Virus record (IMG/VR): IMGVR_UViG_3300048927_000439
Location: 1-34,398 of that record
DNA length: 34,398 nucleotides
Direction: 5' to 3' (one strand)
From: a virus
Shown here: positions 4,029 to 34,395 of the stretch, one piece after another
How positions within the stretch are numbered: position 1 is the stretch's first letter
Layout of the letters: every line of letters starts with the position of its first letter
Notes under the pieces: model-generated
Told to the model about the DNA's origin: nothing
Databases searched by the model: none
Seen by the model: the letters and a program-made list of their open reading frames with translations, nothing else
Translations under genes and position numbers: made by a program

Positions 4029-5399
4029 TTAACGGCAAGTGATGATCACTTCCGCTTCGTCGCCAGCCTCTAGATGATGCTGGGTCGCGTTGAGCTTGCT
4101 GTGGCTGATCCTGCCTGCCGAAGCAACCTCAACGTTCGCGAAATGAGGCTTCGCGAGGCTAAGGATCTGCTCGATCGTCATTACCCTCGGGTGGACCGTA
4201 CCCGTAGATTTGAACGGTGAATAAGACAGTACTAAGCTCGCCCCCGCATGCTTCACACCTGCGAACATTGCATTGAACGCACCGGGTGCTTGTGACCGGA
4301 TGCAGAAGGGAGATTGATGTCTCTCTGCCCTATAGACGCCTCTGCTGATGCGTGGCTCTTTTGCTCTGATGCGGGTTGTAGATAAAGTGGGTTCGTCGCC
4401 TAGGCACATCGTTTCCAGTACGTGATAGAATCGGCTGTAGTGTTCCCGCGTGTACGGAGGGTCGGCGTAAACCACACCGACTTCGCCTCTGATAGCCGTA
4501 AGGGTATCGACGTAGTCGCCCTTGATCACCCGGTGCATTCGAGAAGTGGTGTCAACGATGTCATAGCGACTGGCCCACCTAGTCGCAGCTTCTGAGGCTT
4601 CCAATCCTCTGTCCCGCACTATCTTTGCAATAAGGTGGCGCTTCGGATCGCCTGAGGAATCGCGGGGCTGGATTGGCTGTGCGAACTGCTTCCCAACAGT
4701 ATTTACGATCTCACTGGCGGTGCTAACTGCTATTGCAAGCAGCGTCTCTCTTAGGGGCGAAGCCGCTTTGTGCGCTGATGCTAGGAGCGCGTCTAGGTAG
4801 GCCGCCTGCTTGTAAGAGAAGTAGAGGCCGCCGTAGTGCCGGATCATCACTGTTCCTAATCTGGGCTCGGTGCCTGCTAGTAGTTTTGCTACTTCGCGCT
4901 GCGCTCGATTCCCCTCACTCGATGACATCCAATCTGTCGTCACCAGCGACGCATGTTCAATCAGATCGCAGATTGCTTCTGGATGTCCCCGTCTTGCCTG
5001 GGCAAGAGCTTCTTCTTCGTACTGAATGAGGGGTGCAACCCGTTCAAGTCTGGCTGATAAATCACGTTCGAACGTGTCGCTGAATATCCCACTGCGGATC
5101 TCTGCACCTATGGAACTTGGAAGCAGTATGGCCGAGCATAAGACCCTGGAATACTCCTGAATATCCGCTGCAACGACGTTACGTGTGAAGCTCAGAGCGG
5201 CAGCTACTGTGCCTGATCCTGCGAACAGATCGCAGACAGCCTCATCTTGCGAGCTGACACTATCTATTGCTGCCTTTACCGGCTCTAGTAGGCGGAGTTT
5301 GCTGCCCAGGTAGTGGATGGGACGCCATGGGGTCAGCTCTTCGAAACTCGATGACGGCGCAGAGACGCCCCCGATTGGTGTATCTAAACTCTTGTCCAT
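4029..5399 (-). CDS. DNA adenine-N6 methyltransferase, alpha (D12) class
   Basis: A 456-residue S-adenosylmethionine-dependent DNA methyltransferase. Motif order is that of the alpha/D12 class: an N-terminal YLGSKLRLLEPV (motif X, about 30-41), the AdoMet-binding CDLFAGSGTVA (about 56-66), a long target-recognition region and the catalytic YADPPYTREHYSRFY (DPPY at about 313-316). DPPY indicates m6A. It is somewhat longer than Dam-type enzymes, as expected for a restriction-associated enzyme. It converges with the PLD nuclease and diverges from the second methyltransferase, whose start is about 75 bp away. In BfiI-type systems two methyltransferases protect the two strands of an asymmetric site, and this is probably one of the pair. 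The ribosome site is weak. Recognition sequence unknown. Confidence 0.88.
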   Translation of the reverse strand: MDKSLDTPIGGVSAPSSSFEELTPWRPIHYLGSKLRLLEPVKAAIDSVSSQDEAVCDLFAGSGTVAAALSFTRNVVAADIQEYSRVLCSAILLPSSIGAEIRSGIFSDTFERDLSARLERVAPLIQYEEEALAQARRGHPEAICDLIEHASLVTTDWMSSSEGNRAQREVAKLLAGTEPRLGTVMIRHYGGLYFSYKQAAYLDALLASAHKAASPLRETLLAIAVSTASEIVNTVGKQFAQPIQPRDSSGDPKRHLIAKIVRDRGLEASEAATRWASRYDIVDTTSRMHRVIKGDYVDTLTAIRGEVGVVYADPPYTREHYSRFYHVLETMCLGDEPTLSTTRIRAKEPRISRGVYRAERHQSPFCIRSQAPGAFNAMFAGVKHAGASLVLSYSPFKSTGTVHPRVMTIEQILSLAKPHFANVEVASAGRISHSKLNATQHHLEAGDEAEVIITCR

Positions 5400-5429
5400 A
5401 AAATTCTATCTACTATGATTCCGGCATTG

Positions 5430-5452
5430 TGCTGCTCAGGATTCGGGCAGCA
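5430..5452. promoter_or_regulatory. Inverted repeat in the divergent methyltransferase promoter region
   Basis: TGCTGC (5430-5435) and GCAGCA (5447-5452) form a perfect 6-bp inverted repeat with an 11-nt spacer. It lies in the short region that must hold both promoters of the divergent methyltransferase genes, if the second one starts at 5475. No controller (C) protein gene is visible nearby. It is short enough to be chance. Confidence 0.25.
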
Positions 5453-5474
5453 GGCATCAGTCTATAGGTTCAAT

Positions 5475-6704
5475 ATGAGCGATATACCAGCCGGAAGGCG
5501 AGGGCGCAGCCAGTCCTTGCGAGTTCTAGACTCTTGTCATGGCGATGCTCCGCTGGGGATCGATACAAACACGATTATCCGGGGCGACAATGTGGTGGCC
5601 CTGCAACGACTCTTAGCGACGCACAGAGAGACAGTGCGATGCGCATACATCGATCCTCCATACAACAATATGGAGAGCTACAACCATTATACGGATCGCC
5701 AGACCCATGGGCATTGGCTAGAGCAGATTGAGGATGTTTGCCGTCGTATTCATCCACTGCTAACTCCGGACGGTAGCTTATGGGTGTCAATCGACGACAG
5801 GGAAATGCATTACCTTAAAGTGGCGTTGGACGGCATCTTTGGAAGGCACAACTTTATCAACACCATCGTTTGGGAGCAGCGGACCACGCGAGAGAACAGA
5901 AAAGTGTTCTCGAACAATCACGAGTACATACTCGTCTATGCCAAAGATTGCGTGTCATTCAAGAAAACGCGCGGCTTGCTGGAGTGGGATGAAGCCGTGC
6001 TTACGAGATATAAAAACCCTGATCGCGACTTACGCGGCCCCTGGCAGTCGGTGTCCGCCAATGCGCAAGCTGGGCATGCCACAGCGTCCCAGTTCTACGA
6101 GTTGGTTGCACCTAACGGGCGCAGACATCTGCCGCCAAAAGGTAGATGCTGGGTTTACTCGGAAAATCGCATGAGAGAGGAGATCGAAAAGGGAAACATC
6201 TGGTTTGGACGGGATGGCAGCGGCGTGCCTCGGATCAAGAAGTTTCTGCATCAAGTAAAGCGAGGATTCACGCCACATACCCTCTGGAAAGCGGAGGAAG
6301 TGGGCACCAATGATGCGGCGAAAAAACACCTTCTAAATCTCTTCCCTGATGAACAGGTTTTCGACACACCCAAGCCTGAGAGCTTGATTCATCGCGTTCT
6401 GACCATCGCAAGTAGCCCCGGTGACCTGGTACTAGACGCGTATCTGGGTTCAGGAACAACTGCGGCAGTAGCTCATAAGATGGGCCGCCGATACGTGGGA
6501 ATCGAGTGCGGGGATCATGCCATTACACATTGCGCAGATCGTATACGCAAAGTCATTGCGGGAGAGAATGGCGGCATATCTAGTGCGGTGAAATGGGAGG
6601 GAGGCGGTCCCGACTTTGAGCTTATCGAGATTAACAGAAGCAACAACAACAACTTACAATTACCCCAGAGGAGCCGAGGGAAGATACGGCGCGCGCATGA
6701 GTGA
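5475..6704 (+). CDS. DNA adenine-N6 methyltransferase, beta class (Mod-like)
   Basis: A 409-residue methyltransferase with the reversed motif order of the beta class. Catalytic YIDPPYNNMESY (DPPY at about 60-63) comes first, then a recognition domain (about 130-300), then the AdoMet site VLDAYLGSGTTAAV (about 319-332) and RRYVGIE. This is the layout of Type III Mod and related Type II m6A enzymes. No res helicase follows, so Type III is unlikely. The start is uncertain: ATG 5475 gives a natural N-terminus and has a weak AGG upstream, whereas ATG 5415 adds 20 residues without a ribosome site. Divergent from the alpha-class enzyme. Two classes of m6A enzyme next to one PLD nuclease fit strand-specific protection of an asymmetric site. 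Confidence 0.88.
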   Translation: MSDIPAGRRGRSQSLRVLDSCHGDAPLGIDTNTIIRGDNVVALQRLLATHRETVRCAYIDPPYNNMESYNHYTDRQTHGHWLEQIEDVCRRIHPLLTPDGSLWVSIDDREMHYLKVALDGIFGRHNFINTIVWEQRTTRENRKVFSNNHEYILVYAKDCVSFKKTRGLLEWDEAVLTRYKNPDRDLRGPWQSVSANAQAGHATASQFYELVAPNGRRHLPPKGRCWVYSENRMREEIEKGNIWFGRDGSGVPRIKKFLHQVKRGFTPHTLWKAEEVGTNDAAKKHLLNLFPDEQVFDTPKPESLIHRVLTIASSPGDLVLDAYLGSGTTAAVAHKMGRRYVGIECGDHAITHCADRIRKVIAGENGGISSAVKWEGGGPDFELIEINRSNNNNLQLPQRSRGKIRRAHE

Positions 6705-7079: not shown

Positions 7080-8015
7080 TTATTCGGCTGCATCAGGGAC
7101 TGAAGGAAGTGTCTGGTTCTGCCATTGGTCGTAACTCTCACTTGTCCCCTGTACCTTCCAGGCAGAACGACCGTTGGCCGCCCTTCCGTATATGATGGCG
7201 GCAGCCGCACTTGGGCTGGAGAATGCCACGTCCTCTTTGAAAAGCCAGCGTCCCGTGTCGTCCGGGCCGATCTTTCCCTGATGTGCAAGAGTCTCCCATA
7301 GGTTCCGGTATGTATGGGTTGTTGTTCCCTCCCATGAGGAACGGCACAAAGACCCGTGCTGAACAGTGAACTCTCCATCGATCTCTTGAGCATATGCGGT
7401 CAGGCTGTGCATTCTGCTGGTTAGCTCGAAAACGGGGGACAATGACGGTATCATTGCACTCGTCGCAAGCTTTGATGGATTTTGTTTAACGGTAGCAATC
7501 TCCCGAAGAAAGACGAAATCAAGGAGGGGCAGCATCAGACGAAGCTGCGCCACAAAGTACTCCATGTCTGCCCGATCAGCTTCGGGAAGATTTGAAGGTT
7601 CCGGTGCTGTGTCGTTTGTCAAAGTCACTAAGCCAGAGGCCCTGGACACGGAAATAAGGCGACTTTCTAGATATTTTATATGACCGCTAGTGAGGTTGTG
7701 GTCCTTGCTTGTCACTATGCATGTTTTCTCCCAAAAGGATTTCTTGTCGTCTTTGTTGTGCTGTGCCAGCCGCCTGCCAATGTTCTCACTCTGCCCAATG
7801 TAGACTAGGCTTTGTCCGTCGTTGTCGGGGTCGATCCCTAGTAAGAAGTAGACGCCGGCCTTGCTGGTTTCGTCTCTTGCAAGGAGGGCGGCCAACTTGG
7901 ACCGAGGTGCCGTGATGACATGTCCCGTCCAGTTTATGATCTCTGCCGTAAGGATGCCCTGAGGGTTGCCTTCAACGAGGTGTATTCTCACGGACTTACC
8001 AAAGTTTTCGGACAT
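7080..8015 (-). CDS. GIY-YIG nuclease family protein with C-terminal DUF4357-like domain
   Basis: A 311-residue protein. The GIY-YIG nuclease core starts at GVYFLLG (about 54-60), with VYIGQSENIGRR (about 71-82) and a likely catalytic Glu117 in KYLESRL. The C-terminal about 70 residues (FSSPSAAAAIIYGR, then ANGRSAWKV) resemble DUF4357, a domain that accompanies GIY-YIG or restriction-type proteins. Family members are DNA nucleases found in defence islands, but the target of this one is unknown. I chose ATG 8015 because the fold begins soon after it; ATG 8156 would add 47 residues and overlap a repeat. It points toward the methyltransferase gene, 375 bp away, and lies between two imperfect repeats, as if inserted as a cassette. 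Confidence 0.8.
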   Translation of the reverse strand: MSENFGKSVRIHLVEGNPQGILTAEIINWTGHVITAPRSKLAALLARDETSKAGVYFLLGIDPDNDGQSLVYIGQSENIGRRLAQHNKDDKKSFWEKTCIVTSKDHNLTSGHIKYLESRLISVSRASGLVTLTNDTAPEPSNLPEADRADMEYFVAQLRLMLPLLDFVFLREIATVKQNPSKLATSAMIPSLSPVFELTSRMHSLTAYAQEIDGEFTVQHGSLCRSSWEGTTTHTYRNLWETLAHQGKIGPDDTGRWLFKEDVAFSSPSAAAAIIYGRAANGRSAWKVQGTSESYDQWQNQTLPSVPDAAE

Positions 8016-8112
8016 ATGTCTGCTCGATGACTGCACTGGGGTTAATGAATTTGAACGCGGAGGTGGTAATCCGCTGAATGTAAAGTTCTCGTAATAAAAT
8101 TGAAAAAAATTC

Positions 8113-8160
8113 TCGAGGGGGTATTTAAACTCTCTGGGCCAGCCGCTTCCCCCCATGGGG
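8113..8160 (+). repeat. Imperfect direct repeat, copy 2
   Basis: CGAG, TTTAA and CAGCCGCTT followed by CCCCCCATGGGG; the relative of the copy at 6734-6780, about 1.38 kb away. It lies just upstream of the chosen start of the GIY-YIG gene. Confidence 0.4.
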
Positions 8161-11066: not shown

Positions 11067-12350
11067 TCAATAGTCGTATTTCAGCTTGCTAAGCGCGTCG
11101 CTCAGCTGCGCTACAGTGTAACCAGCCTTGAAGTAAACTTGCTGCGTGACGCCTGCTTGCTGATGGCCCACGATAGCCTTGACGAATGTCTGGTCTACAC
11201 CGGCCTGAGAGAGGTGGGTTATCACGGTGTGCCTTAGCGAATGAAAGACTAAGTCTTCAGACTTGATCCGAAGCGCAGGCAAGAGTGACTCATTGAACCA
11301 CCGTCCAAGTGTGCGCCCCCAACCGTTGTTCGGTGAGTACGAGAAGTCAGGAAACAACTTCAGGCACTGTTTCTTTTTCATCGATTCGACATAGTCGAGT
11401 AGGCCCAACTCTATCAGTTGAGGATGCACAGGAACGATACGTTTTGCCGCTGTGGTCTTGAGGTGTTTTCCATCACCTGCATCATTGATGTCGAAGCACC
11501 AGATGCCGTCCTTTTCGATGAAATCAGATAACGCAAGTTGTGCGATCTCGTTCAGACGTGCTCCTGTATAGGCGCCAATTAGTGGGCCCCATTTCCGATA
11601 GGCTTTGCCAGTTAGAGGTGACGTCTCATCCGTCACTACTCTCAAAATAGAGGCCATTTGATCTGGGGAGAAGGCCGAACGACCATGCTTTCGATCCCTG
11701 CGGACTCGTATTGCAAGACCGGAGAAATGGTTCTTCTCAATGAGTCCATTCTTATGAGCCCATTCGAACATGTCGCTGTAAGTCTGGAGATATTTGTTGA
11801 TTGTCGGGACTTGGATACGGTCCACGCCTACCAGTTTGATGACCTCTTCTAACGACTTGCCGCGTGTTGCCGGGTTCTTTGACCTATTCTTCGGGTAATG
11901 GCTCAGCACCTCTTTTACCTTCCGCGCTGACAGAGCATTCAACGTATCTAGCGTTGTTGTCTCGCCAAGCGCTTCATTCAGCAAAGCTATATGGTCTGAT
12001 TTCTCAAGGATTGTTTTCGGGACCCAACTGTCTGCGCGCTGCTTTTCGGCAGTGTAAGTTTCAGCGAGTTGTGCAATTGTGAGTGCGTTGTTCGCAACCG
12101 GGTTGGCTTCAATCATCGCGGCGGTGCCGCTGCCTTGGTCAAAGCTGTAATGCCTCAGCTTGGTTTCATAGTCGAGAAGACTTTTGAGGGCGTCACGGTA
12201 CGCATGCCGATAGTCCCTCTCTAGTATTCCGTACTCATCGGTGCCGGGCTTTAGCTCAGAGAGCTGGCTCGGGAAATCTGAACAGCGGGGATAAGTGGAA
12301 TTTCTGCCTGACTTCGGCTTAGATGCCGGGAACAGGAGAGACCATGACAA
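11067..12350 (-). pseudogene. Tyrosine integrase, 5' end replaced by an IS element
   Basis: A phage or island-type tyrosine recombinase catalysing site-specific integration and excision. The catalytic residues are present: Arg265 in YTGARLNEIA, His370-x-x-Arg373 in FHSLRHT, His396 in VGHQQ and the nucleophile Tyr406 in QVYFKAGY. The core-binding domain (about 90-215) is also intact. The first 24 codons are IS3-element sequence read backwards; native sequence begins at 12278 (DFPSQLSELKPG). Family members normally have about 50-100 more N-terminal residues that bind arm-type DNA sites, so this copy has lost its own start and probably that domain. The catalytic part could still be translated from within the IS, but activity is doubtful. 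Confidence 0.85.
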
Positions 12351-12655
12351 AGCGACCGCGCCGGAACCATAGCCCGGCTTTCAAGGCAAAGGTGGCGCTT
12401 GCCGCCATCCGAGGCGAGCAGACGCTGGTGGAACTATCCCAGCAGTTCGACGTGCATGCCAACCAGATCAAACAGTGGAAAGACCAGCTCCTTGAGGGGG
12501 CCACAGGCGTTTTCGGCGATGAAGCGAAGACGGAGCCTGCGGGTCCAACCGTCGATGTGAAAACACTGCACGCCAAGATCGGCGAACTGACACTGGAGAA
12601 CGATTTTTTATCCGGTGCGCTCGGCAAGGCGGGATTGCTGGGCGGAAAGAAATGA
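12344..12655 (+). CDS. IS3-family transposase OrfA
   Basis: A 103-residue protein with an N-terminal helix-turn-helix (FKAKVALAAIRGEQTLVELS, then QQFDVHANQIKQWK) that binds the IS ends, and a C-terminal leucine-zipper-like helix (LHAKIGELTLENDFLSGALG). ATG 12344 is preceded by AGGAGAG. Its stop overlaps the OrfB start (ATGA at 12652-12655). In the IS3 family a -1 frameshift before this point usually makes the OrfAB transposase; here the sequence GGAAAGAAATGA offers an A-rich slip context. Confidence 0.9.
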   Translation: MTKRPRRNHSPAFKAKVALAAIRGEQTLVELSQQFDVHANQIKQWKDQLLEGATGVFGDEAKTEPAGPTVDVKTLHAKIGELTLENDFLSGALGKAGLLGGKK

Positions 12656-13482
12656 TCAACCGCGAGCATAAGCTATCCGTCGTGCGCCAGGCGAAGCTTC
12701 TCGGCTTCAGCCGTGGCAGTGTCTATTATCTGCCTCGTCCAGTGCCTGACGGCGATCTTGCCCTGATGCGTCGAATCGACGAACTGCATCTCGACTACCC
12801 CTTTGCCGGAAGCCGGATGTTGCAAGGGCTCTTGAGAGGAGAAGGGCTGGAGGCTGGGCGGCTGCACGTCGCCACGCTGATGAAAAAGATGGGCATCGAG
12901 GCGATCTATCGTCGCCCGAACACATCCAAACCAGTGCCAGGTCACAAAATCTATCCCTACCTCCTGCGAAAGCTGGCGGTCATCCGACCCAACCAAGTCT
13001 GGGCAATGGACATAACGTATGTCCCGATGGCTCGCGGCTTTGTCTATCTCTGTGCCGTCGTGGACTGGTTCAGCCGGAGGGTTCTGTCGTGGCGGCTATC
13101 GATCACGATGGAAGCCGCTTTCTGTGTCGAAGCGGTTGAGGAGGCACTTGCGCGCTACGGCAAGCCCGACATCTTCAACACCGACCAGGGATCGCAGTTC
13201 ACCTCCATCGACTTCACCGCCGTGCTGAAGAAGGCTGAGATTGCCATATCGATGGACGGCAAGGGCGCGTGGCGGGACAATGTCTTCGTCGAACGGCTCT
13301 GGCGCTCGATCAAATACGAGGAGGTCTATCTCCACGCCTACAAGACCGTGTCCGAGGCCCGCGCTGGCATCGGCCGATATCTGACCTTTTACAACAGCCG
13401 ACGCCCACACTCATCCCTTGACCGGCAGACGCCGGATCAGGCTTACTTCAAAGCGCTGACACCGATGAAGGCGGCAGCATAA
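12652..13482 (+). CDS. IS3-family transposase OrfB (DDE integrase core)
   Basis: A 276-residue catalytic subunit. The DDE triad is visible: Asp120 (WAMDITYV), Asp178 (FNTDQGSQFTS) and Glu214 (NVFVERLWRS), with the 35-residue D-E spacing typical of IS3. An HTH_21-like segment (IDELHLDYPFAGSRMLQGLL) precedes it, and the C-terminal YNSRRPHSSL motif is also diagnostic. It overlaps OrfA by 4 bp. No internal stops, so the transposase appears intact. Confidence 0.93.
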   Translation: MINREHKLSVVRQAKLLGFSRGSVYYLPRPVPDGDLALMRRIDELHLDYPFAGSRMLQGLLRGEGLEAGRLHVATLMKKMGIEAIYRRPNTSKPVPGHKIYPYLLRKLAVIRPNQVWAMDITYVPMARGFVYLCAVVDWFSRRVLSWRLSITMEAAFCVEAVEEALARYGKPDIFNTDQGSQFTSIDFTAVLKKAEIAISMDGKGAWRDNVFVERLWRSIKYEEVYLHAYKTVSEARAGIGRYLTFYNSRRPHSSLDRQTPDQAYFKALTPMKAAA

Positions 13483-14236
13483 TCGAGGCGGAAATCCACT
13501 TAGCGAAACGCCCCAAACTGTTCAGACAAACCGAGCCACCTCTGAGCGCCGAGACGCGAACGCCGTTGTCTAGGATGGCAGGCGTGCCGATCATGCCGGT
13601 CTCCGGCGTGATCAAGACCACACCGCCGATGAACCCATCGCCGGGCACAATCTCCATCGTTTCGTTCTGCAGGCTCCAGTAGAAGCCATTCCCGCGCCCG
13701 ATGGTGTCCAGCTCGCGAGAGCACGCTCCACATACAGCATAGGGACGCTTGAACGACTTGTTCTCCACGTCGTCAGGGAATTTCCACTCGCCGCGGCTGA
13801 CGCCTTCCTTCTCAAGCTGCTTATAAAGCTCGTCGACTACCTCCTTGACCGGGGTGCCTTTTGCAAAGCTCTTTGAGATCGTGGCACGCCGCAAAGCCTT
13901 GGAGCCGTCACCACACGAGATGATCGTGAGGATGTTCGGTCCTTCGCGCCGGTTCTCGACGTCGCGAACCGCTCCCTTGAAGATGATGCCGACGTTCCCG
14001 GCGCCGTCCGGAGGGATGTATCCAGCTTCAAGCGTGATGCTGTCGAACTCCTTGCCGACACTGTTTCGGTGGCTCTCCGACAGATTGTAGATCGTGATCT
14101 CAGCCGAGTTTGGCGATGACGAGGTGTCCTTGTCGATCGTGAACTCGATGCGCATTTCATGAGGGTTGATCCCGCCGGGGTTGATGACCAAGCCACCGTT
14201 GAACGTGGCCCTCACCTTTCTGAGGTATTGGAGCAT
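13448..14236 (-). pseudogene. Baseplate hub-type tail protein, 3'-truncated by IS
   Basis: An open frame of 262 codons. Residues 1 to about 237 (13525-14236) are phage sequence and the last 25 or so come from the IS end. The start, MLQYLRKVRATFNGG, leads into a beta-rich domain (EITIYNLSESHRNSV, GYIPPDGAGNVGIIFKG, RDVENRREGPNILTI) like baseplate hub proteins of contractile tails that follow a Dit-like protein and a plug protein. Full-length hubs are usually longer, so the C-terminal part is missing. Its start overlaps the plug gene stop (TGATG), showing the original operon order. Loss of the hub end and of everything downstream should make the prophage tail-defective. Confidence 0.75.
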
Positions 14237-25158: not shown

Positions 25159-25933
25159 TCGGCTGGCCTGGCGGTAGGCCGTCCTCGGCGCCCGTTGGCT
25201 CGCCCCACTTATAGGTGTTGCCGTCAAGCTTCCTGTGCAGCGCCCTCACCCGCTCATCATGCGCGGTCACCCACACATATGATGTAACGCCTGCCTGCTG
25301 TTGCCGGATCTTGTTGAGATCCGAGTTGAACTTGCCGGTCTGGTCGCGAGCGATCAGCTTTGCGCGCCGATCGGTGATTCCGAACTGCTTCTGCAGCTCT
25401 TTCCGCAAGGTGGCGACCGAGTTGCCGGCGATGCTGTTCGTGTAGACCGTCTGTTCGATCCGCTTCACGATGTCGTCGGACATGCTCTGGATCAGAGACG
25501 TGTTCCGAGCGACCGCCGCCTGCAGATAATCACTCAGGTCCTCGTCCCGAACGACCGACGACAGGTTGATGCCCAGCGCCCGCTTGGCCGTTGCCATGAA
25601 GGCTTCGGTGTGGCGCTGCCCTTCGAGATCAAGGATGCGGCTCACTGTGTCGGATGCCACCCGCTGCAACTGGTTCGCCAGCGCTTGCAAGGTCGAGAAC
25701 CAGGTTCGGTCCGCGTCTCCCGTGAAGGCGCGCGCGGCGCGCTTCTGCGTCTGTTCCTGTTGGTAGAGCGGGATGATGCTATCCCGCGCTTCCTTCGCAA
25801 TCTCATTCAGCATCGACCACAGAGCGGCGTAGTACTGCTTTTCGAACGAGAGCCGGACATCGACCGCCGGCAACTCGACTACAGTGCCCTTGGGCTTCTC
25901 GGCCAGCTTGGCAATGGAGTAACGGAGCATCAC
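25118..25933 (-). CDS. MuF-type minor head protein
   Basis: A 271-residue protein with the Mu F / SPP1 gp7 domain: AKLIARDQTGKFNSDLNKIR, YVWVTAHDERVRALHRKLDG and the C-terminal LPPGQPINCRCVARGIVEF with its CxC pair. Such proteins bind the portal inside the head and may be ejected with DNA. Its start overlaps the portal stop by 4 bp (ATGA). The N-terminal about 130 residues are helical. Confidence 0.9.
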   Translation of the reverse strand: MMLRYSIAKLAEKPKGTVVELPAVDVRLSFEKQYYAALWSMLNEIAKEARDSIIPLYQQEQTQKRAARAFTGDADRTWFSTLQALANQLQRVASDTVSRILDLEGQRHTEAFMATAKRALGINLSSVVRDEDLSDYLQAAVARNTSLIQSMSDDIVKRIEQTVYTNSIAGNSVATLRKELQKQFGITDRRAKLIARDQTGKFNSDLNKIRQQQAGVTSYVWVTAHDERVRALHRKLDGNTYKWGEPTGAEDGLPPGQPINCRCVARGIVEF

Positions 25934-27744
25934 TCCTCACTGACGTTGGACTGCCAGTCCTCTTTGACCTCTTTGAACACTTCGGGGCCGAGCACGATCT
26001 CGCCCTGGTAGGGTTCGACCGTCGATAGATCCGGCGCATCCGGGTCATAGCTGATGGTGATGTGAGGCTGATACTCGGGATGATCCCAAGTCGCGCCCCG
26101 CTCCACCATCTCGTCATGACGCCAGCGGAGCATGTTGGAGGAGAAGAGTAACACGCGAGCCTCGCCGAACTTCTCCATCAAGCGAGCACCACCGCGCGGA
26201 ACCTTCATCTCTTCGTCCCATGCGCTACCCATCTCCATCCAGTCGACGGGTGTGCGGCTGTAGGTGATGGTCACATGCAGGTCGTCTGCGGGAAGCGTCT
26301 TGAAACCCTGCCCCTTTGCCCAGGCGATGATCTCGGCGGCGTTCACGACGTTGCGAGAGACATACAGTGTCCGAGGAGCCGCATCCTTGGCCTGCTGTTT
26401 GGCAGGCTCTTCCGTCGGGTCTGTCTCGTCATCCTCGCCGAGGTCGAACTCGCCCTTGGCATCGGTGTCGGCTACCGCCTGGTCGAGACCCGGATAGAAA
26501 CTCGACTCCACCAACTGATTGGTGACGACCGTGCGCAGCTCGACAGGCGTGAAGATGCCCGTGTCCGTCAACGTCTTTGCCGTCTCGGCGTTCATCTTGC
26601 CGATCTCGGCCTGTTCCTTCTCGGTCATCTGCTTGAGCGGAGACCAATCGTAAAAGACTTCCGGCGGCCGGCTGCCGAGTGCAGAGCGGATCAGGCACTC
26701 GTCGAACCGATACAGCGCCGGCGTGATCTCCAGCATCTGGATCGAAGAAACCCGATCGTAGTAGTTGTTCATGTCGGACTCGCCGGTCGACGACATACCC
26801 GCCGGCGACTGACCGAGGAGACGGGTCACCGGGATATCGGCGGCACCGGCCGCCATCTGCAGGAACGACTGCATGACGTCTGGCAACGTGGCGAAACTGA
26901 CCTGCTTGCGCTCGTATTCCTCGTCCTTGTCGAGGATCAGCGCGCGGTTGATACCCTTCGAGGTGGCCGCCAGCGTGAAGCGCTCAAGCAACTTGTTGCG
27001 ATAGACCGGGTCCGCCAAGCTCGCCATGAAATCAGGGATGCGGAAGACATCGACATTCGCCTCGAAGACAAGGCTCGCGATGTTCGCCGCGGTCGCGTCC
27101 GCATTCCTCATGGCGGAGTAGACGGACTCGATGATGCTGTCGCCCCAGCCCTGGTTGACACCGAAGTTCAGCAGGTTGTCACCGTGCGGTGCGCCGATAA
27201 AGATGGCGAGCCGCGATGGGTGAATTTTCACCATGGTGGCGTTGCCCGTCACCTCGTACCAGGCGGGTTTGCCAAAAAACTCCGACAATACATCCTGCTC
27301 GATCGGGCCCGCCGTGACATCGCGGCGCGACAGCACCGTGAGATACTTGATACCGCCCTTGCCCATGCGCTCGACATTAAGCGGCTGCATAAGATCCTGC
27401 TCGCCGGTACCGATATAGAGCGCAGCACCACCCCACAGGCGAGCCTTGACCTTTACATCAAGGAGTTTTCCCCAGAAGTTGAGGCGCTTCTCCTCGCCCT
27501 CGATGAGTTCTATCTGGTCCTGTTCGGCCTGCCATTCTCTACCCTTGCGGATGGCATCCATCGCCGGGATATCGACGATCTTCCGGCCAAGCCAGTTGCT
27601 CTTGTAGATCGCGGCAAGCTGATAGTCGTCGATGTATTGAAGGCCATAGGAGGCCGTCGCCATCTTGTCCCGGTTAGGATCGCCAAGGCCAGCGACGACC
27701 GAGCGCAGGCTGTCATTCGCCCGAAGCTGGATCACGTTACCCAT
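25930..27744 (-). CDS. Portal protein (DUF1073) with C-terminal Acb1-like 2H phosphoesterase domain
   Basis: A 604-residue protein. Residues 1 to about 420 are a DUF1073-type portal (LVFEANVDVFRIPDFMASLA, VTRLLGQSPAGMSSTGESDM, NNYYDRVSSIQ), the dodecameric DNA channel of the head. After an acidic linker (EFDLGEDDETDPTEEPAKQQ), about 150 C-terminal residues form a 2H phosphoesterase domain with its two HxT motifs, LHVTITYSR (His about 490) and QPHITISYD (His about 561). This arrangement is shared with Acb1, the phage enzyme that cleaves cyclic oligonucleotide signals of CBASS. I use ATG 27744 because AGGAAGGG lies just upstream; ATG 27762 lies before that site. Portal function is sure; enzyme activity is inferred. 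Confidence 0.88.
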   Translation of the reverse strand: MGNVIQLRANDSLRSVVAGLGDPNRDKMATASYGLQYIDDYQLAAIYKSNWLGRKIVDIPAMDAIRKGREWQAEQDQIELIEGEEKRLNFWGKLLDVKVKARLWGGAALYIGTGEQDLMQPLNVERMGKGGIKYLTVLSRRDVTAGPIEQDVLSEFFGKPAWYEVTGNATMVKIHPSRLAIFIGAPHGDNLLNFGVNQGWGDSIIESVYSAMRNADATAANIASLVFEANVDVFRIPDFMASLADPVYRNKLLERFTLAATSKGINRALILDKDEEYERKQVSFATLPDVMQSFLQMAAGAADIPVTRLLGQSPAGMSSTGESDMNNYYDRVSSIQMLEITPALYRFDECLIRSALGSRPPEVFYDWSPLKQMTEKEQAEIGKMNAETAKTLTDTGIFTPVELRTVVTNQLVESSFYPGLDQAVADTDAKGEFDLGEDDETDPTEEPAKQQAKDAAPRTLYVSRNVVNAAEIIAWAKGQGFKTLPADDLHVTITYSRTPVDWMEMGSAWDEEMKVPRGGARLMEKFGEARVLLFSSNMLRWRHDEMVERGATWDHPEYQPHITISYDPDAPDLSTVEPYQGEIVLGPEVFKEVKEDWQSNVSEE

Positions 27745-27886
27745 TGCGGCCCTTCCTGACATTCGGCGGGTTCTTCACGACGTCACGAGCGACCTTCGGC
27801 AGCACTTTCAGGACGCCCTTGGCTCCTGCCTGCTTCCGTGCTTCGGCAATCATCTGCCGGCGCTTCTCACAAGGTCCACAGGCCAT
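27737..27886 (-). CDS. Tiny phage protein between terminase and portal
   Basis: A 49-residue, very basic protein beginning MACGPCEKRRQMIAEARKQA and ending in VVKNPPNVRKGRNG. The CxxC near the start and the basic helix are the only visible features. It begins 4 bp after the terminase stop and ends inside the portal start region (8-bp overlap with the chosen portal ATG), which supports a coupled gene in the chain. Too short for default gene callers. Function unknown. Confidence 0.65.
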   Translation of the reverse strand: MACGPCEKRRQMIAEARKQAGAKGVLKVLPKVARDVVKNPPNVRKGRNG

Positions 27887-33069: not shown

Positions 33070-33263
33070 GCCGCGTCCCTCTTCGACAACGCCTTCAGAT
33101 ACGCCGCCTTGATCTCCTCAAAGCGGGTGATGTCGTATTCCTTGGTTTCGATCTCGTGATCTGGGCGAGGCTTCTTGGAGCCTTTGCCGTGATCGTCGAG
33201 CCAGGTCATCGCGCTGGCGATACGGCGATCGAGCCATTGGATCATCTCGGCGGGATCGGTCAT
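33066..33263 (-). CDS. Small charged hypothetical protein (65 aa)
   Basis: A 65-residue helical, highly charged protein (DPAEMIQWLDRRIASAMTWL, DDHGKGSKKPRPDHEIETKE, EEIKAAYLKALSKRDAA). Both ends overlap neighbours by 4 bp. No domain recognised; it may be an accessory to the neighbouring nuclease or to the DNA-modification genes. Confidence 0.6.
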   Translation of the reverse strand: MTDPAEMIQWLDRRIASAMTWLDDHGKGSKKPRPDHEIETKEYDITRFEEIKAAYLKALSKRDAA

Positions 33264-33604
33264 GCTCGTGCCCTCGCCGAAACCCGCATCGTCTGGACGT
33301 CGCCGCCGAATGGAGGCCTGATCAACAGGTCCGCAAACGCTCGAACGGGAACGCGAACGACGTCATGAACTCGGACGGCAAGCTCCTGGATCATCTCTTC
33401 CATGCCGCGGATATCACCTCGCCCGCCGACATACTCATTGACGAATGAGGCAAGGTCTTCGACCGGAAACACGACGGCGTCAGGTCGATAGCAAACCGTG
33501 AGCTTGGAACCGCGAATGGGGTTGCCGGAAAACGGGCAGCATGGCGGTACCGCGAGAGTGTGGCTGATGAAGGATGCTACTAAGGGATTGCATGTTCTGA
33601 TCAC
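33260..33604 (-). CDS. QueF-like (T-fold) protein, candidate 7-deazaguanine enzyme
   Basis: A 114-residue protein. The region CCPFSGNPIRGSKLTVCYRP, then VEDLASFVNEYVGGRGDI and a C-terminal LLIRPPFGGDVQTM follow the layout of unimodular QueF, which reduces preQ0 to preQ1: nucleophile Cys in a CPxTGxP loop, VExxSLxxYLxxF helix, GDxHE, then RGGI. The Cys is present (22 or 23), but the QueF Asp (QPDF) is Ile and the His-Glu pair after GD is Arg-Gly, so the chemistry may differ or be lost. I start at GTG 33604, which overlaps the dpdA-like stop (GTGA). Its position beside DpdA supports a role in 7-deazaguanine metabolism. Confidence 0.45.
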   Translation of the reverse strand: MIRTCNPLVASFISHTLAVPPCCPFSGNPIRGSKLTVCYRPDAVVFPVEDLASFVNEYVGGRGDIRGMEEMIQELAVRVHDVVRVPVRAFADLLIRPPFGGDVQTMRVSARARA

Positions 33605-34395
33605 GCGAACATCTCCATCTGCCAAGGTTGGAAATTCTGATTGGCTGCGTGCTTGACGCGGCGAACGAGGCGATCAGCTTCACGCCAATCGTTGGCGTCC
33701 CTGCCCTGCTTTCGAGCTGCGAAGCTCCACGCCATGCTGTCCGCGGTCGCGAGCAATTCTCTGACGCCTGGATGCAGTAGCGAGGTGATTTTTACGCCGA
33801 ACCCGTGGAGCAGAAAATCCGGACGCTCTGCCGCGATCGCTTGCAAAACCGCGATGATGGCTCGTGGGTCGCCTTGGCGCTTGCAGACGGATCCGACGCC
33901 TACCCACATGCCATTCTTGAGACGCTCGCCATAGATGCGGATGTGCTTGACGTAATCCTGAGGAGCAAAGCCCTGAAGGACCGGCATCACGTGGAACGGG
34001 ATATCCCCGCCAAATAGCCTCTTTAGTGCCGCGACCAACGCGTCGTAGCGCTCGATCGTGAGGGCCTGGTGTTCTTCAATCGTCAAGCCGGTCTTCGCGA
34101 GGATAAACGGCTCGCACATGTAGTCCTGAGCGACAGCGGCTGCGATCCTAACGACCCCAATGGAATAGAGGCGATAGAGTTCCGCGGCATAGTCTTCGAC
34201 CGAGTGCCTGTAGTGGCCATACTTTGAGATTTCGGTGAAGGCACCGCTGTCCACGAGCACATCACCGCAGGGTACCTGCTTCTTGCGACCACGAAGGCGA
34301 TTGATGCTGATGCAAGCCAGATCGAAGTGCTGGGCATCTGCTGGCTGATGGAGGCCCACGTAGAATTTTACAAAGGAGTTCGGCTCTGTCGTCAT
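33601..34395 (-). CDS. dpdA: DpdA-like 7-deazaguanine DNA transglycosylase
   Basis: A 264-residue protein resembling phage DpdA, the tRNA-guanine-transglycosylase-fold enzyme that exchanges guanine in DNA for a 7-deazaguanine base. Features seen: FYVGLHQPADAQHFDLACIS at the N-terminus, VLVDSGAFTEISKYGHY (Asp49, candidate catalytic residue), a second Asp in VAQDYMCEPF, the WVGVGSVCKRQG phosphate-binding-like segment and LLHGFGVK, all in TGT-barrel order. Phages use such modification to escape restriction. It is the first gene of the coupled early chain in this window, with ATG 34395 3 bp from the edge. Other pathway genes (folE, queD, queE, queC) are not seen here and may lie upstream or come from the host. 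Confidence 0.78.
   Translation of the reverse strand: MTTEPNSFVKFYVGLHQPADAQHFDLACISINRLRGRKKQVPCGDVLVDSGAFTEISKYGHYRHSVEDYAAELYRLYSIGVVRIAAAVAQDYMCEPFILAKTGLTIEEHQALTIERYDALVAALKRLFGGDIPFHVMPVLQGFAPQDYVKHIRIYGERLKNGMWVGVGSVCKRQGDPRAIIAVLQAIAAERPDFLLHGFGVKITSLLHPGVRELLATADSMAWSFAARKQGRDANDWREADRLVRRVKHAANQNFQPWQMEMFA

Follow-up and report, generated by a model that had tools for sequence, protein, structure and literature searches.

The window, by which we mean the whole stretch of DNA analysed (an IMG/VR virus record of 34,398 bases), encodes an integrase (11067-12350) along with terminase, portal and tail genes, and part of its DNA is related to Sinorhizobium phage phiLM21. Thus, it likely derives from a temperate rhizobial phage. 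The record is a fragment that ends at a dpdA-like gene (33601..34395, minus strand), whose ATG at 34395 lies 3 bases from the window end and whose product, of 264 residues, is a candidate DNA guanine transglycosylase. Directly downstream on the same strand is a gene for a QueF-like T-fold protein of 114 residues (33260..33604). As the initial annotation had noted, the two genes overlap through a GTGA start/stop sequence (33601..33604, minus strand); an equivalent ATGA overlap occurs in one related contig (L006), and translational coupling of the pair is suggested by this arrangement. A TTG further upstream, at 33625, would extend the mechanically called reading frame (33260-33625) to 121 residues. 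The QueF-like genes of the relatives begin at the position of the GTG at 33604, with ATG or GTG, giving 114 residues. No Rfam match to a preQ1 riboswitch was found near the pair at the gathering threshold.

Relative to three relatives, both genes are under purifying selection, with changes mainly at codon position 3, dN of 0.13-0.35 and dS above 1.2. Given this third-position bias and a dN well below dS, both reading frames are real genes.

Elsewhere in the window is a pair of DNA methyltransferase genes transcribed divergently (4029-5399, minus strand, and 5415-6704, plus strand), one of the D12 type and one resembling Type III modification subunits. Nearby, a GIY-YIG and DUF4357 protein (7080-8156, minus strand) matches the PADLOC candidate defence model PDC-S14 (E 3e-116). 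Modification and restriction had been described as lying side by side in this DNA; the two methyltransferases and the GIY-YIG protein are real, but none of the window proteins tested was identified as a restriction nuclease. The portal protein (25930-27762, minus strand; PF06381, E 6.7e-104) has an anti-CBASS Acb1 domain at its C-terminus (residues 464-605; PF23474, E 9.6e-43), both in a single reading frame. The family phrog_146 spans the whole portal-Acb1 protein, which shows that such fusions are common among its portals. Beside the integrase is an IS3-family insertion (approximately 12260-13550) that shares about 91% identity with Rhizobium plasmid copies.

A distinct DpdA subfamily

The initial annotation had assigned the 264-residue protein to DpdA and had named a profile search as the test. 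The Pfam DpdA profile (PF23859) matches it with E 9.8e-43 (146.6 bits against a cut-off of 27), as does phrog_1279, annotated as queuine tRNA-ribosyltransferase (E 1.6e-80). The fold and the catalytic residues agree with this assignment. The AlphaFold model (pLDDT 91.5) has the TGT-type TIM-barrel fold, and its top PDB matches are all TGT or the DpdA structure 7ui4. In Foldseek the best E-value is 3e-8 and the top seven matches include TGTs and 7ui4; VIA gives Z 19.9 over 241 residues (rmsd 3.5). The catalytic Asp pair and the conserved His are present and invariant in 36 aligned relatives. These are Asp49 in the motif DSGAF (codon 34249..34251, minus strand), His197 in LHGFG (33805..33807, minus strand) and Asp219 in ADSMAW (33739..33741, minus strand). 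We take Asp219 to be the nucleophile, by analogy with TGT. The corresponding motifs in the DpdA of Escherichia phage CAjan, also of the TGT-type family, are DSGAF, LHAFG and CDSSSW. CAjan DpdA is experimentally required for 7-deazaguanine in the phage DNA, and a conserved His has been noted in 9g-type DpdA (PMC6884629).

The closest named relatives are the DpdA proteins of Rhizobium phage RHph_TM3_3_3 (84% identity) and phiLM21 (77%), which have the same kind of host. In the RHph_TM3_3_3 record (L110), an attL (6162-6176) is placed inside the dpdA homologue. A DpdA relative is encoded in 399 phage records, nearly all of them mycobacteriophages, with about 40% identity among the matches listed. 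In contrast to the window protein, which belongs to phrog_1279 and PF23859, the DpdA proteins of CAjan, Cellulophaga phage phiSM, Mycobacterium phage Funsized and Mufasa8 fall in phrog_887, a separate subfamily. PF23859 matched neither the CAjan, phiSM and Funsized DpdA proteins nor any part of the records of Salmonella phage 7-11, Dp-1, HVTV-1, KVP40 and Mufasa8. Our own DpdA profile gave a single weak match, in Dp-1, across the same five records. None of the experimentally tested phages compared carries the window DpdA subfamily.

A QueF-like family with an altered active site

Searched alone, the window QueF-like protein matched no family in profile searches, including the QueF profile, and single-sequence searches of GenBank phages, of plasmids and with viral peptide patterns returned no relative. 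When two more divergent members served as queries, the result was either no hit or weak hits to phage proteins annotated as QueF. Across 50,697 GenBank phage records, tblastn with three members gave no clear relative. Single-sequence queries being insufficient, relatives were recovered by an alignment-based search, which yielded a family comprising the window protein and members on nine other contigs. A nine-member profile (A2) ranks the QueF-Like structure 5jyx (E 0.0039) ahead of QueF (0.026) and GTP cyclohydrolase I (0.47) in the PDB. The Pfam QueF profile matches four of nine members (best E 1.4e-4), and hhalign of the family against an alignment of seven QueFs gives Prob 96 and E 3.7e-9 (Prob 0.6 for the negative control, the QueF-like profile against DpdA). 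The strand and helix order of the AlphaFold model (pLDDT 79.7) is that of a T-fold. With this model, Foldseek ranks 1 to 12 are all QueF-Like chains, and VIA-align scores QueF-Like at Z 12.0, level with GTP cyclohydrolases (about 11). From the profile comparison and the fold rankings, we are sure that the 114-residue protein belongs to the QueF superfamily, and it is likely nearest to QueF-L. The initial QueF-like call thus stands through the profile of the relatives, the fold and the pairing with dpdA, but not through the QueF profile applied to the window protein alone.

GTP cyclohydrolase I, a structurally close T-fold enzyme, was considered and rejected: its CEHH motif, in which the His residues are zinc ligands, aligns with CCPV, and the His residues are absent. 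The family was found in one of 298 Rhizobiaceae genomes, that one being the seed genome itself, and therefore is not a host family.

Two QueF active-site positions are invariant in all ten members. Cys23 (codon 33536..33538, minus strand) aligns with the thioimide-forming Cys55 of B. subtilis QueF and Cys21 of QueF-L, and Glu69 (33398..33400, minus strand) aligns with Glu97 of QueF. The Cys forms the thioimide (PMC5485725, PMC5372742) and Glu97 anchors preQ0 (PMC5372742). QueF is defined by Cys55, Asp62, Glu97 and an NADPH-binding QueF motif, and sequences missing any of these are treated as non-QueF (PMC5372742); QueF-L has the Cys and the general acid/base Asp in common with QueF (PMC5485725). 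Equivalents of Cys55 and Glu97 are present in the window protein, but those of Asp62 and the NADPH motif are not. Following C-P-x-S-x-N-P, the ten members have I, L, Q or R and then R, P, E or A, with no conserved Asp. The NADPH motif, E(S/L)K(S/A)hK(L/Y)(Y/F/W), reads PVEDLASF in the window protein; its first Lys is missing in every one of the ten members, and none has the full motif. The RGG motif is also absent from the family. Other residues are invariant and specific to it (N28, P29, G32, S33, R66, M68 and Q73).

Measured against QueF-L, the protein has the T-fold and the Cys and likewise has no NADPH motif, but the general acid/base Asp, found in the CPISKTVD of QueF-L, has no counterpart. 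Judged from its sequence, which has no QueF Asp, NADPH-binding motif or RGG motif, the protein is not a canonical QueF, and it is not a bona fide QueF-L either. With Cys and Glu invariant and the Asp, QueF motif and RGG absent, binding of a preQ0-type base and formation of a covalent Cys adduct are likely, and NADPH reduction is unlikely.

The best profile and fold match is the Pyrobaculum calidifontis QueF-Like archaeosine synthase (5jyx, 5k0p), which has the thioimide Cys and no NADPH motif. Identity in the structural match is about 18%, however, the Asp of its CPISKTVD is not conserved in the window family, and it acts in an archaeal tRNA context rather than a phage context. QueF superfamily genes are also found in Streptococcus phage Dp-1, Halovirus HVTV-1, phiSM and Funsized, with DpdA annotated near QueF in all except HVTV-1. 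Unlike the window protein, these viral QueFs keep all canonical residues and have a full preQ0 pathway alongside. D59, E-x-K-x-L-K-x-Y and RGG are retained in every one of the seven comparison QueFs, those of Dp-1 and HVTV-1 among them.

Gene pairing and the source of preQ0

The QueF-like gene adjoins dpdA in eight of the nine other contigs, usually with overlapping ends, and in one contig (L087) the gene order is reversed. In another (L055, 8001-9727), dpdA is separated from the QueF-like gene by an HNH endonuclease gene and a further copy of its own 3' end, an arrangement that resembles the outcome of a homing-type insertion. The neighbour of the QueF-like gene in the ninth contig (L090, 6260-8998) encodes a protein of 912 residues with C-terminal ParB domains and, at its N-terminus, the DpdA-type motifs QG...GFGGxC...HLFG. 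ParB-like genes also adjoin DpdA in phiSM and Mufasa8.

Most dpdA loci of the subfamily have no QueF-like partner, which is present in 4 of 80. The gene following dpdA in RHph_TM3_3_3 is a short ORF of no known function, and in phiLM21 it encodes a Vut_1/YhhQ-family transporter, as also in two other loci by sequence (L021 and L075). In a further record (L023) a Vut_1/YhhQ-family gene is near dpdA. YhhQ is a preQ0 transporter (PMC6884629), so the two unrelated partners of dpdA, QueF-like and YhhQ-family, both point to preQ0.

Because the window is a fragment ending at dpdA, the absence of preQ0 genes from the window alone proves nothing. Among the virus records searched, QueC was identified in 2 of 46 (one of these matches being weak and below the cut-off) and QueD in 2 of 46; FolE and radical-SAM (QueE) matches were found in 1 of 15 tested. 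The record IMGVR 3300011403_000004 (48.3 kb) has a terminal repeat of 123 bases and is probably complete; it carries the dpdA/QueF-like pair and has no match to folE, queD, radical-SAM (queE) or queC. No preQ0 genes were found in phiLM21. CAjan, unlike the relatives of the window phage, has its own folE, queD, queE and queC as well as a transporter. The pair is also present in the genome of Rhizobium sp. Root483D2, where the DpdA is 83% identical to that of the window. This genome encodes folE, two queC-queD-queE sets, two yhhQ-family genes and a canonical queF; the two queC-queD-queE clusters are separate (L097, L094) and one is followed by a yhhQ-family gene. The initial annotation had proposed a search for folE, queD, queE and queC to the right of the window. 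Such a search would probably be futile, as these genes are absent from relatives that extend further, including the apparently complete one, and are present in the rhizobial host genome. Host supply of preQ0 has been proposed for phages that encode only DpdA (Hutinet and colleagues; PMC6884629), and from the gene content the phage probably makes no preQ0 itself and takes it from its host.

A predicted host-dependent DNA modification module

We suggest, with a probability of about 0.5 for the explanation as a whole, that the pair is a minimal, host-dependent module for 7-deazaguanine modification of DNA, in which preQ0 is converted to archaeosine and protects against restriction. We infer that DNA is the substrate and preQ0 the base inserted, and that the order of steps, the product and the protection would be as follows. 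The rhizobial host would make preQ0 for the queuosine of its own tRNA, and the phage DpdA would exchange guanine in phage DNA for it. Cys23 of the QueF-like protein would attack the preQ0 nitrile, whether the base is free or already in DNA, with Glu69 as its anchor. The resulting thioimide would be resolved by ammonia, most likely to archaeosine (dG+), and the modified bases would shield the phage DNA from restriction. Resolution by ammonia is favoured because the protein has no NADPH site, and archaeosine is our best guess because of the nearness to QueF-L. Modification of DNA by DpdA is highly probable, as is a role for the QueF-like protein in the same pathway. The identity of the product as dG+ is proposed tentatively. 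It is supported by the loss of the NADPH motif, in a helix that resembles QueF-L, and by the presence of a canonical QueF in the host, which would make a second reductase redundant. Counting against the explanation as a whole, the rarity of a QueF-like partner among the relatives of the window DpdA is one consideration, and the ranking of QueF-L over QueF rests on modest E-values. Archaeosine chemistry is also not assured, as there is no conserved equivalent of the Asp that serves as general acid/base in QueF and QueF-L (PMC5485725). Dp-1 and HVTV-1, whose QueFs were predicted to be QueF-L, carry dPreQ1 rather than archaeosine (PMC6884629), but their QueFs, unlike the window family, keep the NADPH motif.

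The same precedent, along with membership of the QueF superfamily, would fit a divergent preQ0 reductase and dPreQ1 in the phage DNA. We consider this unlikely given that the window family has in full none of the Asp, NADPH and RGG features kept by all seven comparison QueFs, that sequences without these residues are treated as non-QueF (PMC5372742), and that the rhizobial genome already encodes QueF. Somewhat less doubtful is that the protein acts on the nitrile by hydration or some other conversion, giving dADG or another, undescribed base, or only binds preQ0 and delivers it to DpdA. Retention of Cys and Glu with loss of the general acid and cofactor motifs, the other family-specific invariant residues and the coupling to dpdA would all be consistent with such roles, and Salmonella phage 7-11 has dADG and DpdA with no known preQ0 genes (PMC6884629). 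It is possible, if still on the doubtful side, that the protein founds a separate T-fold family with undescribed 7-deazaguanine chemistry in DNA, perhaps yielding a new base, and with all of the precursor derived from the host.

Two further explanations would remove the effect on phage DNA. The DpdA might make no detectable modification, leaving the pair as cargo, as in Mycobacterium phage Orion, which encodes DpdA and has unmodified DNA (PMC6884629); the window DpdA subfamily is, moreover, distinct from the tested ones compared. However, the host of Orion has no preQ0 genes whereas the rhizobial genome with the pair has all of them, and the purifying selection and invariant catalytic residues described above make this improbable. 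Least probable is action on tRNA, altering host queuosine. The TGT fold would permit it, and archaeal QueF-L works on tRNA (PMC5485725). Set against this are the strong Pfam DpdA match, a length of 264 residues without the additional length of tRNA TGTs (chains of about 350-390 residues), and the DSGAF, LHxFG and DS motifs, which also occur in CAjan DpdA, an enzyme needed for modification of DNA (PMC6884629).

Earlier work has described phages that encode only DpdA, as well as phages that combine DpdA, QueF or QueF-L with a full preQ0 pathway (PMC6884629; PMC7472734). What appears to be new is a coupled dpdA/QueF-like pair without preQ0 genes, in which the partner has neither the Asp nor the NADPH motif; we found no description of such a pair in the literature compared. 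Further phage 7-deazaguanine bases and enzymes were reportedly the subject of a 2023 paper in Nucleic Acids Research, and our literature search did not find the gene names from it in the context of the window pair. DpdA phages without precursor genes are a large group, and whether their DNA is modified is still open (PMC6884629). From a dedicated partner gene in such a phage one can predict that preQ0 of the host is put to use and further remodelled, and the QueF-like partner would reveal the capabilities of a QueF fold that lacks the canonical Asp and NADPH site.
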